Below are positions 5,654 through 58,737 of a stretch of 64,000 nucleotides of DNA, piece by piece. The DNA is from an uncultured Bacteroidales bacterium (GTDB lineage: Bacteria > Bacteroidota > Bacteroidia > Bacteroidales > Muribaculaceae). The translations under genes and the position numbers were made by a program. The stretch spans positions 1 through 64,000 of the forward strand of contig CACZAC010000006.1 of the NCBI GenBank assembly GCA_902779125.1, in the 5' to 3' direction. Position 1 is the stretch's first letter, and every line of letters begins with the position of its first letter. The notes under the pieces were generated by a model. It searched no databases and was not told the origin of the DNA. It was given only the letters and a program-made list of their open reading frames with translations.

Positions 5654-8407
5654 ATGAAAAAAGACGACGACGAACTGGAAGGCATGGAGCCTCAGGAACC
5701 TGCCGAGGACAACTCCACGGACAACGGCAACGCTAGCGGCACTCCCGCCCCCGAGGGCGGTGACGGCAACGATGGCGATGGCGATGAACCGCAGGCCCAT
5801 TCTACCTACCAGGTGCCCAAAGATAAGAAACTGCAACTGAGCGGCATGTACGAGAACTGGTTTCTCGACTATGCCTCCTATGTGATACTCGAGCGCGCCG
5901 TTCCCCACATCGAGGACGGCTTCAAACCCGTGCAGCGCCGCATCATGCATGCCATGAAGGAGGCTGATGACGGCCACTTCAACAAGGTCGCCAACATCGT
6001 GGGTCTGACGATGCAGTATCATCCCCATGGTGACGCCTCAATCTACAGTGCGCTTGTCCAACTAGGTCAGAAAGAGCTACTTATCGACACCCAAGGTAAC
6101 TGGGGTAACATCCTCACCGGCGACGGTGCGGCTGCCGGACGTTATATCGAGGCACGCCTGAGCGAATTTGCCCTTGATGCGGTTTATAACCCCAAAGTGA
6201 CCGACTGGGGCATGTCCTATGACGGACGTAAGCGTGAGCCGCTCACCCTGCCCGCCAAGTTCCCGTTGCTGCTCACACAGGGTGCCGAGGGTATCGCCGT
6301 CGGCTTGTCGTGCAAAATCCTGCCCCACAACTTCAACGAAGTCATTGACGCCGCCATCAGCTACCTGCGTGGCGAGGAGTTCCACCTCTATCCCGACTTC
6401 CAGACGGGAGGCTACATCGACGTGAGCCACTACAATGACGGCGAACGCGGCGGCAACGTGCGCGTGCGTGCCAAAATCGAGAAACTTGACAACAAGACGC
6501 TGCTGGTCAAGGACGTGCCCTACGGCAAGACCACGGGCAACGTCATCGAGTCCATCCTCAAGGCCGGTGAGCGTGGCAAGATAAAAATCCGCAAGGTTGA
6601 GGACAACACCAGTGCAACCGCCGAGATTATCGTCTCGCTGCAGGCCGGCACGAGCAGCGACATCGCCATTGATGCCCTGTATGCCTTCACCGACTGCGAA
6701 ATCTCCATCTGGCCCAACTGCTGCGTCATCATGGACCAGAAACCGCAGTTCCTCACTGTGAGCGACGTGTTGCGCTACAGCGTGGACCGCACACGCGACA
6801 TCCTGCGCCAGGAACTTGAAATCCAGCGTGGCGAGACGATGGAAACCCTGCACAATGTGTCATTGGAAAAGATTTTCATCGAGGAGCGCATCTACAAGGA
6901 CAAGGAATTTGAGAACGCCAAGGATCAGGAGCGCGCCCTCAAACACATCGACAAGCGACTGACGCCCTTCAAGCCCCAATTCTACCGCGAGATTACCCAA
7001 GACGACCTGCTGCGCCTGCTTGAGATACCGATGAAACGCATCATCAAGTACAACAGCGACAAGGCCGAGGAAAACATCGCGCGTCTCAACGAGCGCATCG
7101 AGGACATCGACAACAAACTCGCCCACTTGACCGACTACACCATCGAGTGGTTCAAGGGTCTGAAGACCAAATACGGCGCCAAGTACCCGCGTCGCACCAT
7201 CATCCGCGAGTTTGACACCATCGTCGCCAGCAAGGTTGCCGAGGCCAACCAGAAGCTCTACATCAACCGTGCAGACGGCTTCATCGGCACCGGCCTGAAG
7301 AAGGACGAATTTGTGTGCAACTGCTCGGACATCGACGATATCATCATCTTCTACAAGGACGGTAAATTCAAAGTCGTCAAGGTGGCTGAGAAACTGTATG
7401 TGGGCAAGAACATCCTCTACCTGAACGTGTTCAAGAAAGGTGACGACCGCACCATCTACAACGTGCTGTATCTTGACGGCCGAGGCGGTACCACCTTCAT
7501 GAAGCGCTTTGCCGTCACGGGCATCACCCGCGACAAGGAATATGACATCACCCAGGGCAAGCCTGGCAGCAAGATTACCTGGTTCACTGCCAATCCCAAT
7601 GGCGAGGCCGAGGTGCTGCGCATCACCCTCAAACCCAAGTTCAGGCTCAAGATTCTGCAATTTGACGTGGACCTTGCCGAACTCGCCATCAAAGGCAAGC
7701 AGGCACGCGGTAACATCGTCACCAAGAACGAGGTACACCGCATCACCCTCAAAGAAGCCGGACAATCGACGCTGGGCGACCGCGAGGTGTGGTTTGACCC
7801 CGACATCCTGCGCATCAACTACGAGGGCCACGGCCGCTCACTGGGCCTGTTCGGCGGCGAAGACCGCATCCTCGTCATTATGGGCAATGGTGACTTCTAT
7901 ACCACCAGTGCCGAGGCAACCAACCACTACGATGAGGGCATCCTGCGCATTGAGAAGTTCGTATCCGACAAGGTGTGGACTGCCGTGCTTGATGATGCCG
8001 ACCAAGGTCACCCCTACGTCAAGCGCTTCACCCTCGAGGACAACACCAAGAAGCAGAGCATTATCGGCACCAATCCCGACTCACGCCTGCTGTTGCTGAG
8101 CGACGAGCCATGCCCGCGCTTTGAGGTGAAGATGGGCGGTGGCGATGCCTTCCGCGAGCCGTTTGTGATTGATGCCGAGGAGTTTATCGGTGTCAAGACC
8201 TTCAAGGCCAAGGGCAAACGCGTCACCAACTGGGAGGTGGCTTCCATCACCGAAATCGAGCCTCGAGAGCCGGCACCCGTCGAGGAGGCTGCTACTGTCG
8301 TGGCACCGATTGATGACACCGGCAGCGACGAGGCCACAGGCGACATCAGTCAGGAAGACGTGTTCAACGAGCTGACGGGCCAGCAACGCCTTCCCTTCGA
8401 TGAGTAG
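5654..8407 (+). CDS. parC: DNA topoisomerase IV subunit A (GyrA/ParC family)
   Basis: This 917-residue subunit cuts and rejoins DNA in a type IIA topoisomerase. The fold is clear from FKPVQRRIMHAM, YHPHGDASIYSALVQLGQ and the catalytic tyrosine in AAGRYIEARLSEFA (Tyr164). The C-terminal half (from about residue 530) is the expected beta-pinwheel region, without a gyrase GQRGGKG box, which favours topoisomerase IV over gyrase. Residues 1-50 form a low-complexity acidic Gly/Asp-rich extension. A -7 element TATCTTTGC lies 19 bp before the ATG. The partner ATPase subunit is not in the window. Confidence 0.9.
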   Translation: MKKDDDELEGMEPQEPAEDNSTDNGNASGTPAPEGGDGNDGDGDEPQAHSTYQVPKDKKLQLSGMYENWFLDYASYVILERAVPHIEDGFKPVQRRIMHAMKEADDGHFNKVANIVGLTMQYHPHGDASIYSALVQLGQKELLIDTQGNWGNILTGDGAAAGRYIEARLSEFALDAVYNPKVTDWGMSYDGRKREPLTLPAKFPLLLTQGAEGIAVGLSCKILPHNFNEVIDAAISYLRGEEFHLYPDFQTGGYIDVSHYNDGERGGNVRVRAKIEKLDNKTLLVKDVPYGKTTGNVIESILKAGERGKIKIRKVEDNTSATAEIIVSLQAGTSSDIAIDALYAFTDCEISIWPNCCVIMDQKPQFLTVSDVLRYSVDRTRDILRQELEIQRGETMETLHNVSLEKIFIEERIYKDKEFENAKDQERALKHIDKRLTPFKPQFYREITQDDLLRLLEIPMKRIIKYNSDKAEENIARLNERIEDIDNKLAHLTDYTIEWFKGLKTKYGAKYPRRTIIREFDTIVASKVAEANQKLYINRADGFIGTGLKKDEFVCNCSDIDDIIIFYKDGKFKVVKVAEKLYVGKNILYLNVFKKGDDRTIYNVLYLDGRGGTTFMKRFAVTGITRDKEYDITQGKPGSKITWFTANPNGEAEVLRITLKPKFRLKILQFDVDLAELAIKGKQARGNIVTKNEVHRITLKEAGQSTLGDREVWFDPDILRINYEGHGRSLGLFGGEDRILVIMGNGDFYTTSAEATNHYDEGILRIEKFVSDKVWTAVLDDADQGHPYVKRFTLEDNTKKQSIIGTNPDSRLLLLSDEPCPRFEVKMGGGDAFREPFVIDAEEFIGVKTFKAKGKRVTNWEVASITEIEPREPAPVEEAATVVAPIDDTGSDEATGDISQEDVFNELTGQQRLPFDE

Positions 8408-8425
8408 AAAACTACAAAGATAAAG

Positions 8426-8606
8426 GGAAGACAATAAATACAATAATGACAATGCTATCCAAATTCATAACCTGCGGAGCTAATGCGAATTACGCTAATT
8501 TCACGAATTGTTTGTTTTCAAAATTCATGGAATTTGTCAAATTCGAGAAATTCGCATTGAAAAAACGGTGCGGATGCCATAGTACTTATTGTACTTATTG
8601 TCTTCC
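8426..8606. repeat. Palindromic leader element A
   Basis: The outer arms 8426-8460 and 8572-8606 are inverted repeats matching at 29 of 35 positions (GGAAGACAATAAATACAATA against its complement). An inner inverted pair is built on AATGCGAATTACGC...GAAATTCGCATT. The element contains the likely ATG (8452) of the next gene, and its right arm encodes the core of the signal peptide (STYCTYCLPF). Confidence 0.75.
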
Positions 8607-9378
8607 TTTTATTTTACTGCTGTGCTGCAGCTTGAGCGTTGCGGCCGAACCCGCTGACATACCCGGATCGGCGGTGCTGCCCAATCAGTCGATATTCATG
8701 CTCGACGCGGGCTATGCCTCGGTCCATGACAGCTACCTCACGCCCATTACCTACGACGGCATCGACCTGGGCCTCTCCATCGAGGCCACGCGCTGGGTCA
8801 ACCGCTATAGGTGGCTGTGGCAACTGGGCGTGGGCGCCGGCTACAACTATGTGGAGAACAACGCCCAGAACAACGAGTTGCACAAGGTCATGGGCGACAT
8901 CTCGTTCAACATGCAGCACGCCTGGCTGGGCTTGATACACCCGCGGCTGGGCTTCTCGGCCGGACCCATGACGCAGTTGCGCGCGGGCATCGTCTATGAT
9001 GCCGTCAACAGCAACAACCCTGTCACCGTCAGGGCCCACTGGAATCTGGGCGCAACGGGTATGGCCTGGTTCAACCCCCTTCTGGGGCGCCTGCCCATCA
9101 CCCTGCGCTATCAGTTGCAACTGCCTGTCGCCGGCGTGTTCTTCGCACCCGAGTACGACGAGAGCTACTACGAGATCTACCTGGGCAACCACAAGAACCT
9201 CGCCCACCTGGGCTGGTGGGGCAACCGCTTCGACATGACCAACTACCTGGGAGCCGACCTGCGCTTGGGCAAGACCGTCCTGCGCATCGGCTATCGCAAC
9301 CGCCTCGAGCACTGGACCGTCAACAACCTCCATGTCCACGACGTCACCCACTCCATCGTCCTCGGCATCTCCCTCTAA
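8452..9378 (+). CDS. Outer-membrane beta-barrel-like protein, possibly DUF3316
   Basis: The mature part alternates aromatic and polar residues and ends in a strand-like ...THSIVLGISL, as in outer-membrane barrels. I recall Prevotella DUF3316 proteins with a similar C-terminus but cannot confirm this. The hydrophobic core of the export signal is LPFILLLCCSLSVAAEP, about 50-60 residues in. I chose ATG 8452 because it gives MLSKF, matching MLSRF of the next gene inside a shared leader sequence. ATG 8446 is 6 bp upstream, and ATG 8527 would give a signal peptide of more usual length. The start lies within palindromic element A. Confidence 0.65.
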   Translation: MLSKFITCGANANYANFTNCLFSKFMEFVKFEKFALKKRCGCHSTYCTYCLPFILLLCCSLSVAAEPADIPGSAVLPNQSIFMLDAGYASVHDSYLTPITYDGIDLGLSIEATRWVNRYRWLWQLGVGAGYNYVENNAQNNELHKVMGDISFNMQHAWLGLIHPRLGFSAGPMTQLRAGIVYDAVNSNNPVTVRAHWNLGATGMAWFNPLLGRLPITLRYQLQLPVAGVFFAPEYDESYYEIYLGNHKNLAHLGWWGNRFDMTNYLGADLRLGKTVLRIGYRNRLEHWTVNNLHVHDVTHSIVLGISL

Positions 9379-9379
9379 A

Positions 9380-9420
9380 CTCGCTTGCGCTCGCAGGTTA
9401 GAGATTAAAGGTTAAAGCTT
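9380..9420 (+). repeat. Intergenic word-repeat fragment
   Basis: CTCGCTTGCGCTCGCAGGTT is followed by the near-tandem words GTTAGAGATTAAAGGTTAAAG. The same two-part arrangement (GCTCGC...GCTCGCAGTTTA, then TTTAGAG-type words) occurs at 45671-45705. Confidence 0.55.
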
Positions 9421-9429
9421 AAAGAACGA

Positions 9430-9562
9430 AAATAATAAATACAATAATAACAATGCTATCCAGATTCAATCAAACAACAAGGACAACCATCAACAACAAG
9501 AACAACCGAGTATTTTTTAAGAATGTTGTTCCGGTTGTTCAATGTTGTTTATGTTGTTTGAT
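9430..9562. repeat. Palindromic leader element B
   Basis: The first part (9430-9467) repeats the 5' part of element A, including ACAATGCTATCC with the ATG. The inner arms differ: 9469-9508, made of AACAACAAGAACAACC-type words, pairs with 9532-9562 (CGGTTGTTCAATGTTGTTTA), with about nine extra bases in the left arm. The right arm encodes the VVQCCLCCL core of the lipoprotein signal peptide. Confidence 0.75.
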
Positions 9563-10589
9563 CTTGTGCTGCCTGTGCTGGGGTTGTGCCGAGAAGGATG
9601 AGTTTGAGCGGGACCAGGTGGGCAACTTCGAGGCACTGTGGACCATCATGGACGAGCACTACAGCTTCTTTGACTACAAGCAGGTGGACTGGAACGAGGT
9701 GCACAGCCGTTACCGCGCCCTGGTGTCCAACGACATGACCGACAGAGAGTTGTTTGACGTGTGCGGCGATATGCTCAAGGAGCTGCGCGACGGCCACACT
9801 AACCTCATCGCCAGTCACGACGTGTCGCGCTACTGGGTGTGGGAACAATGGCCCGTCAACTACAACGAGCGCCTTATTGACCAGCATTACCTTAACTTCG
9901 ACTACAAGAGGGCGTCGGGCATCAAGTACCAGATTCTGCCCGACAACTTCGGCTATATGTACTATGGTTCCTTCTCGTCGGTCATCGGCGAGGGCAACCT
10001 TGACCTCATTCTGAGTTACCTCTCCACCGCCGACGGCCTCATCATCGACGTGCGCGACAACGGCGGCGGCTACCTGACCAACGTCGAGACCCTCGTCTCG
10101 CGCTTCATCGGCGAGAAAACCCTCGCGGGCTACATCTGCCACAAGACGGGCAAGGGGCACAACGACCTTTCGGAGCCCTATGCCTACTATTTCGAGCCCA
10201 CCAAGAATCACATCCACTACCTCAAACCTGTCGTAGTGCTGGCTAGCCGCGGCTCCTTCAGCGCGACCAACAACTTCGTGTCGATTATGAAGTCCTTAGA
10301 CCAGGTCACCGTTGTGGGTGACACCACCGGCGGCGGTTGCGGCCTCCCCTTCACCAGTGAGTTGCCCAACGGCTGGCGTGTGCGTTTCTCATCGTGCCCC
10401 ATCATGGATGCCCAGGGCAGGCTCACCGAGTTTGGCGTAGCGCCCGACGTGCGCGTTGACATGGACGAGGATGACCACACCCATGACGCCATCCTCGACA
10501 CCGCCATCGACATCCTGGCTCGTGCCACGGCAGCGCCACGGCTTCCACAACGCAGCAATGCCAAATTACAACAACAATACGACAATTAA
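9453..10589 (+). CDS. S41-family peptidase-like lipoprotein
   Basis: This 378-residue protein begins with a cysteine-rich export signal ending in LCCLCWGC, a plausible lipobox. The mature part follows the tail-specific protease (S41) fold: GFEALW-like helical start, GHTNL, DVRDNGGGY and a nucleophile region RGSFSATN (Ser268/Ser270). VVGDTTGGG and a closing EFGVAPDVRVD follow. These enzymes cleave envelope proteins or peptides. No PDZ domain is obvious. ATG 9453 lies in palindromic element B, and its MLSRF start matches the previous gene. It probably acts at the periplasmic face of a membrane. Confidence 0.85.
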   Translation: MLSRFNQTTRTTINNKNNRVFFKNVVPVVQCCLCCLILCCLCWGCAEKDEFERDQVGNFEALWTIMDEHYSFFDYKQVDWNEVHSRYRALVSNDMTDRELFDVCGDMLKELRDGHTNLIASHDVSRYWVWEQWPVNYNERLIDQHYLNFDYKRASGIKYQILPDNFGYMYYGSFSSVIGEGNLDLILSYLSTADGLIIDVRDNGGGYLTNVETLVSRFIGEKTLAGYICHKTGKGHNDLSEPYAYYFEPTKNHIHYLKPVVVLASRGSFSATNNFVSIMKSLDQVTVVGDTTGGGCGLPFTSELPNGWRVRFSSCPIMDAQGRLTEFGVAPDVRVDMDEDDHTHDAILDTAIDILARATAAPRLPQRSNAKLQQQYDN

Positions 10590-10633: not shown

Positions 10634-11125
10634 ATGAAAAAAATCATGCTTTTCGCCCTGATGGCTGTGATAGCAGTCATGGGAATGCGCGCTGAAGAGG
10701 GAGACCTCTCGGTGGCAACTGAATTAGCCTTCGGCTCCAAGTGCAGCCAACCCGGTATCGGTCTCCAGATTCAGATTGAGCCCGCCGGCAACTGGCGCAT
10801 TGCACCCGAGCTGATTCTCTATTTCAAGAACAAGAACAGGACATCCTATGACTTCAACCTCAACGCCCACTACCTGTTCCACACCAACGAGCATTTCGCC
10901 ATCTATCCGCTGGCAGGTATCTCCTATGTCAACATCAAGACCGAGTACAAGGAAGAGGACGGGACTAAGATCAGTCACAAGTACGACCGTTTTGGAGGCA
11001 ATGTCGGTGGCGGCATCCAGTACAAGTTCAAGGATTACCTCTACTTCTTCGGCGAGGAGCGTTTCCAGTTCATGAAAAACAACTGCCAGGCTGTGACAAT
11101 GCTGGGTGCCAGATTCGCCTTCTGA
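10634..11125 (+). CDS. Small outer-membrane beta-barrel protein (first of pair)
   Basis: This 163-residue protein has a signal peptide (MKKIMLFALMAVIAVMGMRA). The rest alternates hydrophobic and polar residues in strands (ELILYFKNKN, FNLNAHYLFH, YKFKDYLYFFGEERFQF) and ends in phenylalanine (ARFAF), the usual barrel insertion signal. It fits the OmpX/OmpW-sized barrel class. The next gene is a paralog 64 bp downstream. Confidence 0.8.
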   Translation: MKKIMLFALMAVIAVMGMRAEEGDLSVATELAFGSKCSQPGIGLQIQIEPAGNWRIAPELILYFKNKNRTSYDFNLNAHYLFHTNEHFAIYPLAGISYVNIKTEYKEEDGTKISHKYDRFGGNVGGGIQYKFKDYLYFFGEERFQFMKNNCQAVTMLGARFAF

Positions 11126-11189: not shown

Positions 11190-11675
11190 ATGATGAAAAA
11201 ATCCATACTTTTTGCCCTCGTGGCTATCATGGCTGTCCTGGGCGCTCGCGCTGAGAAAGGTGACCTCTCGATTGCGGCACAGTTCGACTACGCTTCCAAG
11301 AACTCCATGGCAGGTTTCGGTGCACAGCTCCAATATGAGCCCATCAAAAACCTGCGCTTTGCTCCCGAGTTCATCTACTATCTCAAGAACGACGGTCTCT
11401 CGGCCTACAACTTCAATTTCAATGTCCACTACATTATCCCCACGGGCAACACCTTCGCCCTGTACCCGATGGCAGGCTTCAGTTACGCCAAATTCAAGTA
11501 TGACGACTCGTTGATTGGCAGCAGCTTCAACCGCTGCGGTGCCAACATCGGTTTCGGAGCCCAGTACCGTATCCAAGAGAGCCTGTACTTCTTTATCGAG
11601 CAGCGCTTCCAGATTATCAAGGACCGCAACCAGTCTGTTTCTGTCCTGGGAGTCAAATACGCTTTCCATCTCTAA
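11190..11675 (+). CDS. Small outer-membrane beta-barrel protein (second of pair)
   Basis: A 161-residue paralog of the preceding protein: signal peptide SILFALVAIMAVLGARA, then the same strand order with EFIYYLKND, FNFNVHYII and LYFFIEQRFQ, ending VKYAFHL. It starts ATGATG, so the true start may be 11190 or 11193. The pair probably forms small eight-stranded outer-membrane barrels. No enzyme motif is seen. Confidence 0.8.
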   Translation: MMKKSILFALVAIMAVLGARAEKGDLSIAAQFDYASKNSMAGFGAQLQYEPIKNLRFAPEFIYYLKNDGLSAYNFNFNVHYIIPTGNTFALYPMAGFSYAKFKYDDSLIGSSFNRCGANIGFGAQYRIQESLYFFIEQRFQIIKDRNQSVSVLGVKYAFHL

Positions 11676-42858: not shown

Positions 42859-43611
42859 ATGCCACACTACATCAAGGTCAGCCAGACGGCAAGCACCAAC
42901 ACTTACCTGTCCCGCTTGGCAGCCACGCTGCCAGGCGGTACGGTCATTTATACCCCCAGCCAGACTGCTGGACGCGGTCAGAAGGGCAATTCCTGGGAGA
43001 GCGAGGACGGCAAGAACCTCACTTTCTCAATGCTCCTCAAGCGACCACCCGTCAAGGCCCGCGACCAGTTCTACCTGAGCGAGGCGGCAGCGCTGGCTGT
43101 CGTCGAGGCACTGAGCACCGAGGCTGGCGAAGGTTTCACCGTCAAGTGGCCCAACGACGTCTATTGGCGTGACAAGAAGGTCTGCGGCATGCTTATCGAG
43201 AGTTCGCTCGACGGCAGCAATATTGCCCACAGCATTGTGGGCATCGGCATCAACGTCAACCAGGAGCGCTTCTTGAGCGATGCGCCCAACCCGGTCTCAC
43301 TCATCAATATCACAGGCCGTGAGCACGACCTGATGGCGCTGCTGAAACGCGTCTGTTCACGCATCGAGCAACTGACAGATGGACTTGCCGACGACAATGC
43401 CCGCAACGACCTGCACGAGCGCTACATGGCTGCACTCTACCGCAATGACGGCGAGTTGCACCCCTACGAGGACGCCAGTGGCAACCGTTTCAATGCCAAC
43501 GTGGCATGTATCGCCCCCGACGGCACTCTCACCCTGCGCCACGAGGACGGCACTACCCACGACTACCTCTTCAAGGAAGTCAAGCACATCATCAACGAAG
43601 TAGTCCTGTAA
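42859..43611 (+). CDS. birA: Biotin-protein ligase
   Basis: This 250-residue enzyme attaches biotin to carboxylase carrier domains. It has the biotinoyl-AMP loop in AGRGQKGNSWES, the lysine motif VKWPNDVYWRDKKVCGMLIE and GIGINVNQ. A small C-terminal SH3-like domain follows. No N-terminal winged helix is present, so it is a ligase without repressor function. It is in a unit with tsaE. Confidence 0.93.
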   Translation: MPHYIKVSQTASTNTYLSRLAATLPGGTVIYTPSQTAGRGQKGNSWESEDGKNLTFSMLLKRPPVKARDQFYLSEAAALAVVEALSTEAGEGFTVKWPNDVYWRDKKVCGMLIESSLDGSNIAHSIVGIGINVNQERFLSDAPNPVSLINITGREHDLMALLKRVCSRIEQLTDGLADDNARNDLHERYMAALYRNDGELHPYEDASGNRFNANVACIAPDGTLTLRHEDGTTHDYLFKEVKHIINEVVL

Positions 43612-43750
43612 ATAAAAAACTACGAATTACGCGAATTAAACAAAGGCTACGCAACGGATGCCTAATCCTGTCAATCCGTTTAATTCGCCGACAATAAAGA
43701 AGAATGTGGATACCAATTGGTATAATTAGCGTAATTCGTAGTTTATAAAT
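43612..43750. repeat. Palindromic intergenic element C
   Basis: The outer arms around 43617-43638 (AAACTACGAATTACGCGAAT) and 43722-43743 are inverted repeats with one mismatch in the 22-bp core. Inside, GCGAATTAAAC (43631-43641) also pairs with GTTTAATTCGC (43678-43688), and AACGGAT (43653-43659) pairs with ATCCGTT. The 43631-43641 segment cannot use both partners at once. Confidence 0.8.
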
Positions 43751-43759
43751 AACAAAAAT

Positions 43760-50141: not shown

Positions 50142-50220
50142 AACACGAATGCCCGTGAATGGTCACGAATGGTCATAAATATTTTATGATGATTCATGGA
50201 CATTTATGGGCATTCGTGTT
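50142..50220. repeat. Palindromic intergenic element D
   Basis: The left arm 50142-50180 and right arm 50181-50220 form an almost loop-free inverted repeat. Thirteen outer bases pair perfectly (AACACGAATGCCC) and about 31 of 39 pair overall. The arms repeat CACGAATG/GTGAATGG words. It lies between the BspA-like gene and the gntP promoter. Confidence 0.8.
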
Positions 50221-58666: not shown

Positions 58667-58737
58667 GAAAACAATAAATACAATAAGTACAAACTATTGG
58701 AATTTAATCCATTGTACTTATTGTATTTATTGTTTTC
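58667..58737. repeat. Perfect inverted repeat E
   Basis: The 26-bp arms 58667-58692 and 58712-58737 are exact reverse complements (GAAAACAATAAATACAATAA...) around a 19-bp loop. The same words occur in element A. It lies between convergent genes and ends in TTTTC on the plus strand, so it may also act as a weak bidirectional terminator. Confidence 0.85.

Follow-up and report, generated by a model that had tools for sequence, protein, structure and literature searches.

In an uncultured Bacteroidales bacterium, one of a group of related gut bacteria, two palindromic repeats, which we call elements A and B, encode the predicted start codon, the polar N-terminus and a portion of the hydrophobic core in two predicted export signals. 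They were likely inserted over the starts of two envelope genes and kept for their signal-like arms. The left arm (in B, the shared left part) is an A-rich leader holding the ATG, the loop or inner palindrome encodes a K/R-containing stretch, and the right arm encodes residues rich in L, V, C, Y and F that run into a remnant of the native signal. In one clade, the leader appears to have been replaced repeatedly by other palindromes or to have received a different inner palindrome, and leaders appear to have passed from one of the neighbouring genes to the other and from species to species. Selection would act on the open frame and the signal-like peptide, not on the hairpin, and mobility is suggested by type-1 copies in intergenic sites, one site differing between sister species. 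Judged from sequence, the leaders would be translated and exported.

Results

Two palindromic elements overlap the starts of neighbouring genes

The window is the whole stretch of 64,000 nt that was analysed; its genome comprises 3.35 Mb in 97 contigs. Element A overlaps the start of a DUF3316 gene and element B overlaps the start of an S41-peptidase gene (Table 1). Element A is a nested palindrome of 199 bp with outer arms of 44 nt and inner arms of 28 nt, both 82% complementary. The palindrome of B is 94 bp long, with arms of 38 nt that are 79% complementary. A sequence-only reading of this stretch had claimed that the elements share a 5' part, that both genes begin MLSK/R, and that each element forms a long hairpin from different words. 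The shared part is real (41 nt, 8427-8467 in A and 9428-9468 in B, 90% identity), the frames read MLSK from 8452 and MLSR from 9453, and the hairpins were borne out, A being larger than stated by its outer repeat. In A, this shared part doubles as an arm of the outer hairpin; B has no right arm matching it. The further claim that the right arm encodes the hydrophobic core held for B, where the arm gives the start of the core, and only in part for A, whose arm encodes STYCTYCLPF while most of the strongest hydrophobic 12-mer (FILLLCCSLSVA, residues 53-64) falls immediately after the arm.

A second in-frame ATG at 8446, two codons before 8452, is the start given in the ORF list. Several relatives keep only the equivalent of 8452 and have none at the equivalent of 8446.

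Table 1. Coordinates of the genes and repeat parts in the window
Feature	Position	Strand	Remarks
DNA gyrase/topoisomerase IV subunit A match	5654-8407		Upstream of element A
Element A, outer palindrome	8417..8615	+	Words AATAAATAC / TACTTATTGT; arms 8417-8460, 8572-8615
DUF3316 (PF11777) gene, predicted envelope protein	8446..9378	+	ORF list, domain match
Predicted start codon of the DUF3316 gene	8452..8454	+	Within the left outer arm of A
Element A, inner palindrome	8482..8558	+	GCGAATT-type words; arms 8482-8509, 8531-8558
Right outer arm of A as codons STYCTYCLPF	8581..8610	+	First part of predicted signal-peptide core
Element B, left part	9428..9468	+	Includes start codon 9453; 90% identical to 8427-8467
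S41 peptidase (PF03572 + PF14684, Tricorn C1 domain), predicted lipoprotein	9453..10589	+	Lipobox-like ..LCWGC
Element B, palindrome	9469..9562	+	Word AACAACAAG; arms 9469-9506, 9525-9562
Right arm of B as codons VVPVVQCCLCCL	9525..9560	+	First part of predicted lipoprotein signal core

Another repeat (GCTCGCAGGTTAGAG..TTAAAG) lies upstream of B at 9379-9429. Sequence resembling it precedes the S41 leaders of the genomes G161, G163, G196 and G199, as well as the intergenic copies on contig C39 and in G221 that are described below. Because a similar repeat stands before several copies, the unit may be compound. Behind the S41 gene are two tandem similar proteins (10634-11125, 11190-11675) with ordinary MKK-type N-termini, the first of which matches OMP_b-brl (PF13505).

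Palindromes of this class are abundant in the genome

We scanned 796 kb of the same genome for gapped palindromes, in place of a stricter ungapped scan that had given 24 groups, with score thresholds of our own choice. There were 54 palindromes scoring at least 18 compared with one in one second-order Markov shuffle; thus the palindromes of A and B are not due to chance. Many arms consist of tandem short words, namely AATAAATAC, CAGTTTT, AACAACAAG, CGAATTACG, CACGAATG and TTTAGAG. The 796-kb sample and a 1.16-Mb sample used below represent about one third of the genome and are non-random: the whole contigs are C6, C2, C1, C5, C3, C9, C39 and C47, and C39, C47 and the partial pieces were picked because they hold matches. 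The 1.16-Mb set contains 67 palindromes, 11 of 78 being longer than 215 nt and left out.

Three more palindromes of the class lie in the window, at 43607-43754 (CGAATTACG), 50142-50220 (CACGAATG) and 58667-58737 (AATAAATAC); the first occupies nearly all of one gap between two genes. GGATGCC/GGCATCC occurs in 11 of the 67 palindromes across unrelated word classes (2.2 copies expected from genome density), possibly because these share an origin or a factor.

The AATAAATAC word pair is found at 63 places in this genome, at 16 places in G045, mostly as a variant word, and at 0-5 places in the rest of 99 family genomes. The left-arm pattern (up to two mismatches) is present in 32 of 101 genomes of the genus. 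It also occurs in records named uncultured Bacteroidales, Prevotellaceae, Muribaculaceae and Porphyromonadaceae; goat duodenum and roe deer abomasum are mentioned in two of the record titles, while the RUG genome series is presumably of rumen origin. Among viral contigs, ten stretches matched a pattern and none was a relative. A second copy of A on C39 (82% over query bases 18-201 of 216) is intergenic, 44 nt after one gene and 275 nt before the next.

Apart from A and B, none of the 67 palindromes in the 1.16 Mb has captured a gene start. The script, which called an ATG within 12 nt of a palindrome, counted A; B, with its ATG 16 nt before the palindrome, was added by hand. Two mixed-class palindromes with an internal ATG sit inside long ORFs. 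Since only A and B supply a start, capture is not general; it seems to be frequent at the DUF3316 and S41 genes, and because these are neighbours, exchange between the two is one possibility.

Leader palindromes occur in one clade of relatives

The DUF3316 and S41 genes are each present in 140 of 149 family genomes. In a tree of 38 S41 proteins, the window genome fell among 35 that were split from three others with support of 99/97. The sequence-only reading had suggested searching relatives for such palindromes at signal-peptide starts. In this clade, a palindrome scoring at least 14 with the start codon at it and the right arm in frame was found at 13 of 34 DUF3316 and 22 of 35 S41 starts (those examinable among 36 loci); the 13 is a lower bound, because those loci do not reach the DUF3316 starts of G204 and G238, for which the loci L184 and L187 were used instead. 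Outside the clade, palindromes scoring at least 14 within 380 nt upstream of a conserved anchor were seen in 0 of 28 DUF3316 and 0 of 27 S41 loci (29 loci per gene, with L106, L151 and L156 dropped for lack of the anchor motif), the largest scoring 13.5. Orthologues outside the clade start with short ordinary signal peptides such as MKRILYTLALLLTLTLTAC.

The leaders of the clade (G228, which has no anchor, was dropped) were assigned to types by eye, giving at least five types. Type 1 has the outer AATAAATAC palindrome with the inner GCGAATT palindrome, and type 2 combines the type-1 outer palindrome with an inner AACAAC palindrome. Type 3 has the left outer part and an AACAAC palindrome, as in B. 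In type 4, the left arm of an AACAAC palindrome forms the untranslated leader as far as the ATG; type 5 is the MNSL type (G165, G167), and type 6 is a leader with TTTCCCGTGCG. Ordinary signals occur in the clade besides these types: the S41 genes of G209, G210, G204, G227, G238 and G239 have an ordinary MKR or MKK start, and of these only G204 has a palindrome scoring at least 14 upstream (18.0).

The arms encode a polar and then a hydrophobic peptide

Translation of the 29 A-first palindromes in 1.16 Mb gave a mean Kyte-Doolittle (KD) hydropathy of -1.43 for left arms and +1.79 for right arms (all frames, both strands). In 69% of strands, each of the three right-arm frames exceeded 0.5; counted singly, 136 of 174 right-arm frames had no stop in nine codons. 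Twelve T-first palindromes showed the reverse pattern, and random 27-mers averaged -0.31. Codons with A in the middle specify polar residues and their complements, with T in the middle, hydrophobic residues, so that the polar-then-hydrophobic peptide of A-rich and T-rich arms follows from the genetic code. The palindrome classes were set by base composition; the values therefore show what the arms encode, not that selection made them so.

Among the leaders, 27 of 28 have a hydrophobic 12-mer (KD of at least 1.8) after a net positive stretch, and a lipobox-like motif is present in 14 of 14 S41 leaders. In B-type leaders the arm forms the first half of the core. In A it forms a weaker first part; here, as in other type-1 leaders, the hydrophobic peak belongs mostly to the native sequence beyond the arm.

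Hairpin decay leaves the frame and the peptide

Segments 8408-8640 and 9379-9600 have predicted folding energies of -68.5 and -55.4 kcal/mol, respectively. The hairpin could be a regulatory RNA over the start codon that controls translation or attenuates transcription, the coding capacity of the arms being a by-product; we think this unlikely. As such an RNA would suggest, 19 of 28 leaders have a start region predicted to be mostly paired (P unpaired <0.25), but in 8 of them it is mostly open; for G161 S41, both genes of G197 and G234 DUF3316, the codon assessed is the one aligned with MLS rather than the actual ATG. Stem pairs were counted in 18 aligned leaders, one of them an intergenic copy. 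In the outer stem, 88.6% of the cells are paired compared with 34-61% when the stem is slid, and five pairs have changed on both sides compared with 2.3 in shuffles, a value reached by 10 of 500. This excess and the unusual conservation of synonymous sites in the leaders (see below) are consistent with an RNA structure, whereas the inner stem shows no compensatory change in the 18 leaders. On these pair counts, weak for the outer stem and absent for the inner one, we set the regulatory hairpin aside as the less likely reading. At gathering thresholds, Rfam matched nothing but a tRNA in the window.

Decayed copies also argue against regulation. In the S41 gene of G195, an in-frame deletion has removed the inner palindrome and the outer arm has changed (best score 10), and in that of G220 the left outer arm has been replaced (best score 13); the start and the arm-derived peptide stay in both. 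The S41 gene of G217 has lost the inner palindrome and kept the outer one (score 23), and the peptide stays there too. Moreover, leader types with unrelated stems replace one another. Frame and peptide persist, and the fold appears to be dispensable, though it may have some effect on expression. The other suggestion of the sequence-only reading, that folding over the start controls translation, is therefore not upheld. Hairpin decay in coding copies, together with the inner stem that lacks covariation, suggests that the repeat likely supplies the start, the n-region and part of the core.

Leaders differ between sister genomes and are shared between genes

Identity between G000 and G163 is 0.93-1.00 over window positions 8421-8600, falls to 0.77 and 0.63 in the adjoining 30-nt bins and to 0.27 in the next bin downstream, and is 0.87-0.97 in the mature gene from 8691 on. 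The leader of G000 is absent from DUF3316 of the sister genome G221, which has different leaders at both genes. Modular swaps are seen in G196 (both genes) and G234 (DUF3316), where the outer arms enclose an AACAAC inner palindrome instead of GCGAATT with the frame kept. The number of type changes on the S41 tree is at least 20 for S41 and at least 14 for DUF3316, rough counts because the resolution of the tree is poor, with 20 of its 35 inner branches open. We compared leaders for their nearest relative, leaving aside type-3 leaders and G192, which is the same as G163. The S41 leader of G199 is nearest to the DUF3316 leader of G204 (0.938), and that of G198 is nearest to the DUF3316 leader of G238 (0.927). 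In G196, its own two copies are nearest each other (0.947). In G161 and G197, each leader is nearest to its orthologue, as vertical descent predicts.

These comparisons bear on the possibility that the leaders are old and vertically inherited, having diverged under nucleotide-level constraint with no insertion or exchange. The leaders shared by the sister pairs G161/G197 and G163/G192 agree with it, as may the synonymous divergence: over nine pairs, pS is 0.090 in the leader compared with 0.383 in the mature part, and pN is 0.053 compared with 0.074. These pairs exclude G214/G238 and G198/G214 (frameshift), both at DUF3316, and two cross-gene pairs, and the leader pN/pS is 0.63 when the frameshift pair and G214/G238 are included. 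The low synonymous divergence could also mean constraint on DNA or RNA rather than recent exchange. Against vertical inheritance stand the different leaders of the sister G221, the numerous type changes, the nearest leaders on the other gene of another species, and the existence of intergenic copies, and we consider it quite unlikely. Different palindromes at the same place in relatives, together with the open frame described below, point instead to a wandering repeat that likely became a working part of the protein.

The sequence-only reading had also proposed a repeat as the source of the leader, start codon and signal peptide of unrelated envelope genes. In agreement with this, PF11777 and PF03572+PF14684 genes carry the same leader with an open frame, and both leader and palindrome are absent from the orthologues examined outside the clade. 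A protein search with the DUF3316 leader matched 8 of 9 candidates, seven PF11777 proteins and one S41 protein (P0007, 71% identity to the DUF3316 leader), and found no other family among proteins of 0.55-1.75 times the query length. The same search with the B leader gave one S41 protein alone (1 of 1 candidate) in that length range. The DUF3316 proteins P0001 and P0002 are very similar and differ in the predicted signal peptide by one TYC unit; this unit is the translated 9-nt arm word.

G221 has an intergenic type-1 copy where the corresponding site of G000 has none; other repeats stand there in G000, including a short AATAAATAC piece. At the C39 site, the element is missing in G219 and a shorter related stretch is present in G203, the surroundings being too diverged to define a junction. 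No target-site duplication was visible in these two site comparisons, with flanks diverged or full of other repeats.

A search for transposases (PF01797) gave Y1 genes on C2 and C40. The one inspected, a RAYT-like gene at C2:95218-95466, is flanked on its two sides by GC-rich palindromes (94395-94643 and 95807-95902; L069), an arrangement known from REP-RAYT systems, and a AATAAATAC palindrome lies 1.5 kb from it at 96967. Mobilisation by this RAYT seems unlikely, as the gene has its own GC-rich palindromes, which are not of the A/B type.

The reading frame is open through coding leaders

Frame 0 is free of stops in 27 of 27 measured coding leaders, and the other two frames in 5 of 27 and 1 of 27. 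The intergenic C39 copy has four stops in frame 0. The 27 are drawn from 28 coding copies and include near-duplicates (G163 and G192 are alike); DUF3316 of G219 was dropped because the end of its arm was not recognised, and its translation is open. Each measured leader is a single stretch of 31-52 codons with a polar-to-hydrophobic layout. Since the leaders had been chosen by an in-frame start motif, the motif was recounted without that condition. Within 300 nt of the anchor, it is in frame in 26 of 27 clade rows, and the one out-of-frame row (G167 S41) lies above that gene's own different start. Two further coding leaders, those of DUF3316 in G204 and G238, were taken from named loci.

Left-arm matches elsewhere were read in the same way. 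Of 45 in named genomes, all 13 at DUF3316 or S41 genes read through, and 30 of the other 32 stop within 50 codons; the exceptions are L193 and L207, the latter (181 codons) appearing to be a gene that has a start of its own further on. A second set of 38 matches, which overlaps the first, contains 14 frames of at least 100 codons, and 11 of these are DUF3316 or S41 genes. The long frames at L252 (the same element as L193) and L254 are probably spurious, lying opposite longer ORFs on the other strand, and that of L261 has 101 codons. A type-1 copy elsewhere in the sister G221 meets a stop after 37 codons.

Gap runs against G163 are multiples of three in 13 of 18 cases. Among the rest, two with an apparent length of 8 are 9-nt gaps truncated at the column bound, another two are single gaps where the G195 arm ends, and one is a true +1 in G198. 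After this shift, the right arm of G198 reads MPLYLLCLLFS and is still hydrophobic.

The open frames have to be weighed against the view that the repeats are passive neighbours, the genes starting downstream of the right arm and the upstream frames being open by chance. It is true that A has an in-frame ATG at 8527, which the sequence-only reading had named as a possible start, that some clade members begin with an ordinary MKR or MKK signal, and that five other A-first strands in the same genome read openly into a coding ORF while supplying no start. However, all 27 measured leaders are open, the ATG at 8527 is GTG in G163 and G192, and B has no in-frame ATG, GTG or TTG between 9453 and residue 36. 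In addition, B-type S41 proteins would lack an n-region without the leader. We consider passive neighbourhood very unlikely. An assembly artefact is extremely improbable: misassembly at repeats is well known and the named genomes seem to have been assembled from metagenomes, but nine of them, produced by several assembly projects, show the arrangement, and the P0001 cluster holds 85 member sequences.

Discussion

The closest known system, set against A and B by its description, is that of the Rickettsia palindromic elements (RPE). The parts of the sources consulted describe RPE as several families of palindromic repeats, each repeat about 150 bp long and translated in frame within unrelated proteins (PMC10969869, PMC2996958). 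A and B resemble them as palindromic repeats present in several copies (A of 199 bp, the B palindrome of 94 bp, the C39 copy, the 29 A-first palindromes) and in the frame, open in all 27 measured leaders, on the unrelated families PF11777 and S41. As described there, RPE are in-frame insertions into an existing ORF, whereas A and B would carry the start codon and part of a predicted export signal. Unlike RPE, repeats of the A/B type can be nested, and their A-rich-then-T-rich arms fit the layout of a signal peptide.

PARCEL modules are described as tandem 25-residue amphipathic domains encoded by dyad-symmetric DNA, thought to be exchanged between genomes and found in membrane-targeted proteins and lipoproteins (PMC2996958). 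The A/B leaders share, as far as that description goes, the dyad-symmetric coding DNA, the supposed exchange and the association with membrane-targeted proteins or lipoproteins. They are, however, single stretches with no tandem 25-residue amphipathic domain, and the portions of PMC2996958 considered here do not describe PARCEL as the signal peptide itself. Palindromic coding elements are also cited there for Wolbachia and Methanocaldococcus.

MITE and REP-RAYT palindromes are presented as dispersed, short and intergenic, with some in-frame gene fusions (PMC10969869, in part). Element A is MITE-like in having terminal inverted repeats, its 44-nt arms standing at the ends. It may differ, in that no target-site duplication was seen in the two comparisons and in that the inspected Y1 gene lies amid GC-rich palindromes of other sequence. 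According to the abstract of PMC6649704, mitochondria of Nematomorpha have long perfect inverted repeats with both arms translated in conserved protein regions. Both arms are translated, as they would be in A and B; in contrast, these are perfect repeats in animal mitochondria, and the abstract mentions neither a start codon nor an export signal. Titles and abstract openings on palindromes, MITEs, RPE and signal peptides describe no repeat that supplies a start codon together with a signal peptide.

It is an even question for us whether repeats with A-rich and T-rich arms are portable, ready-made secretion signals in either orientation and almost any frame, used as exchangeable cassettes at two envelope genes in this clade. 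If so, new export signals would arise by repeat insertion rather than by point mutation, which would bear on the open question of the origin of new signal peptides. Replacement can be compared across about 35 related species, in which the relatives with native signals are the likely starting point. The comparison also offers several palindrome products, frameshifted and decayed versions, and intergenic copies as a non-coding control. The genetic code gives a testable reason why A-rich/T-rich palindromes could be tolerated at the starts of secreted proteins.
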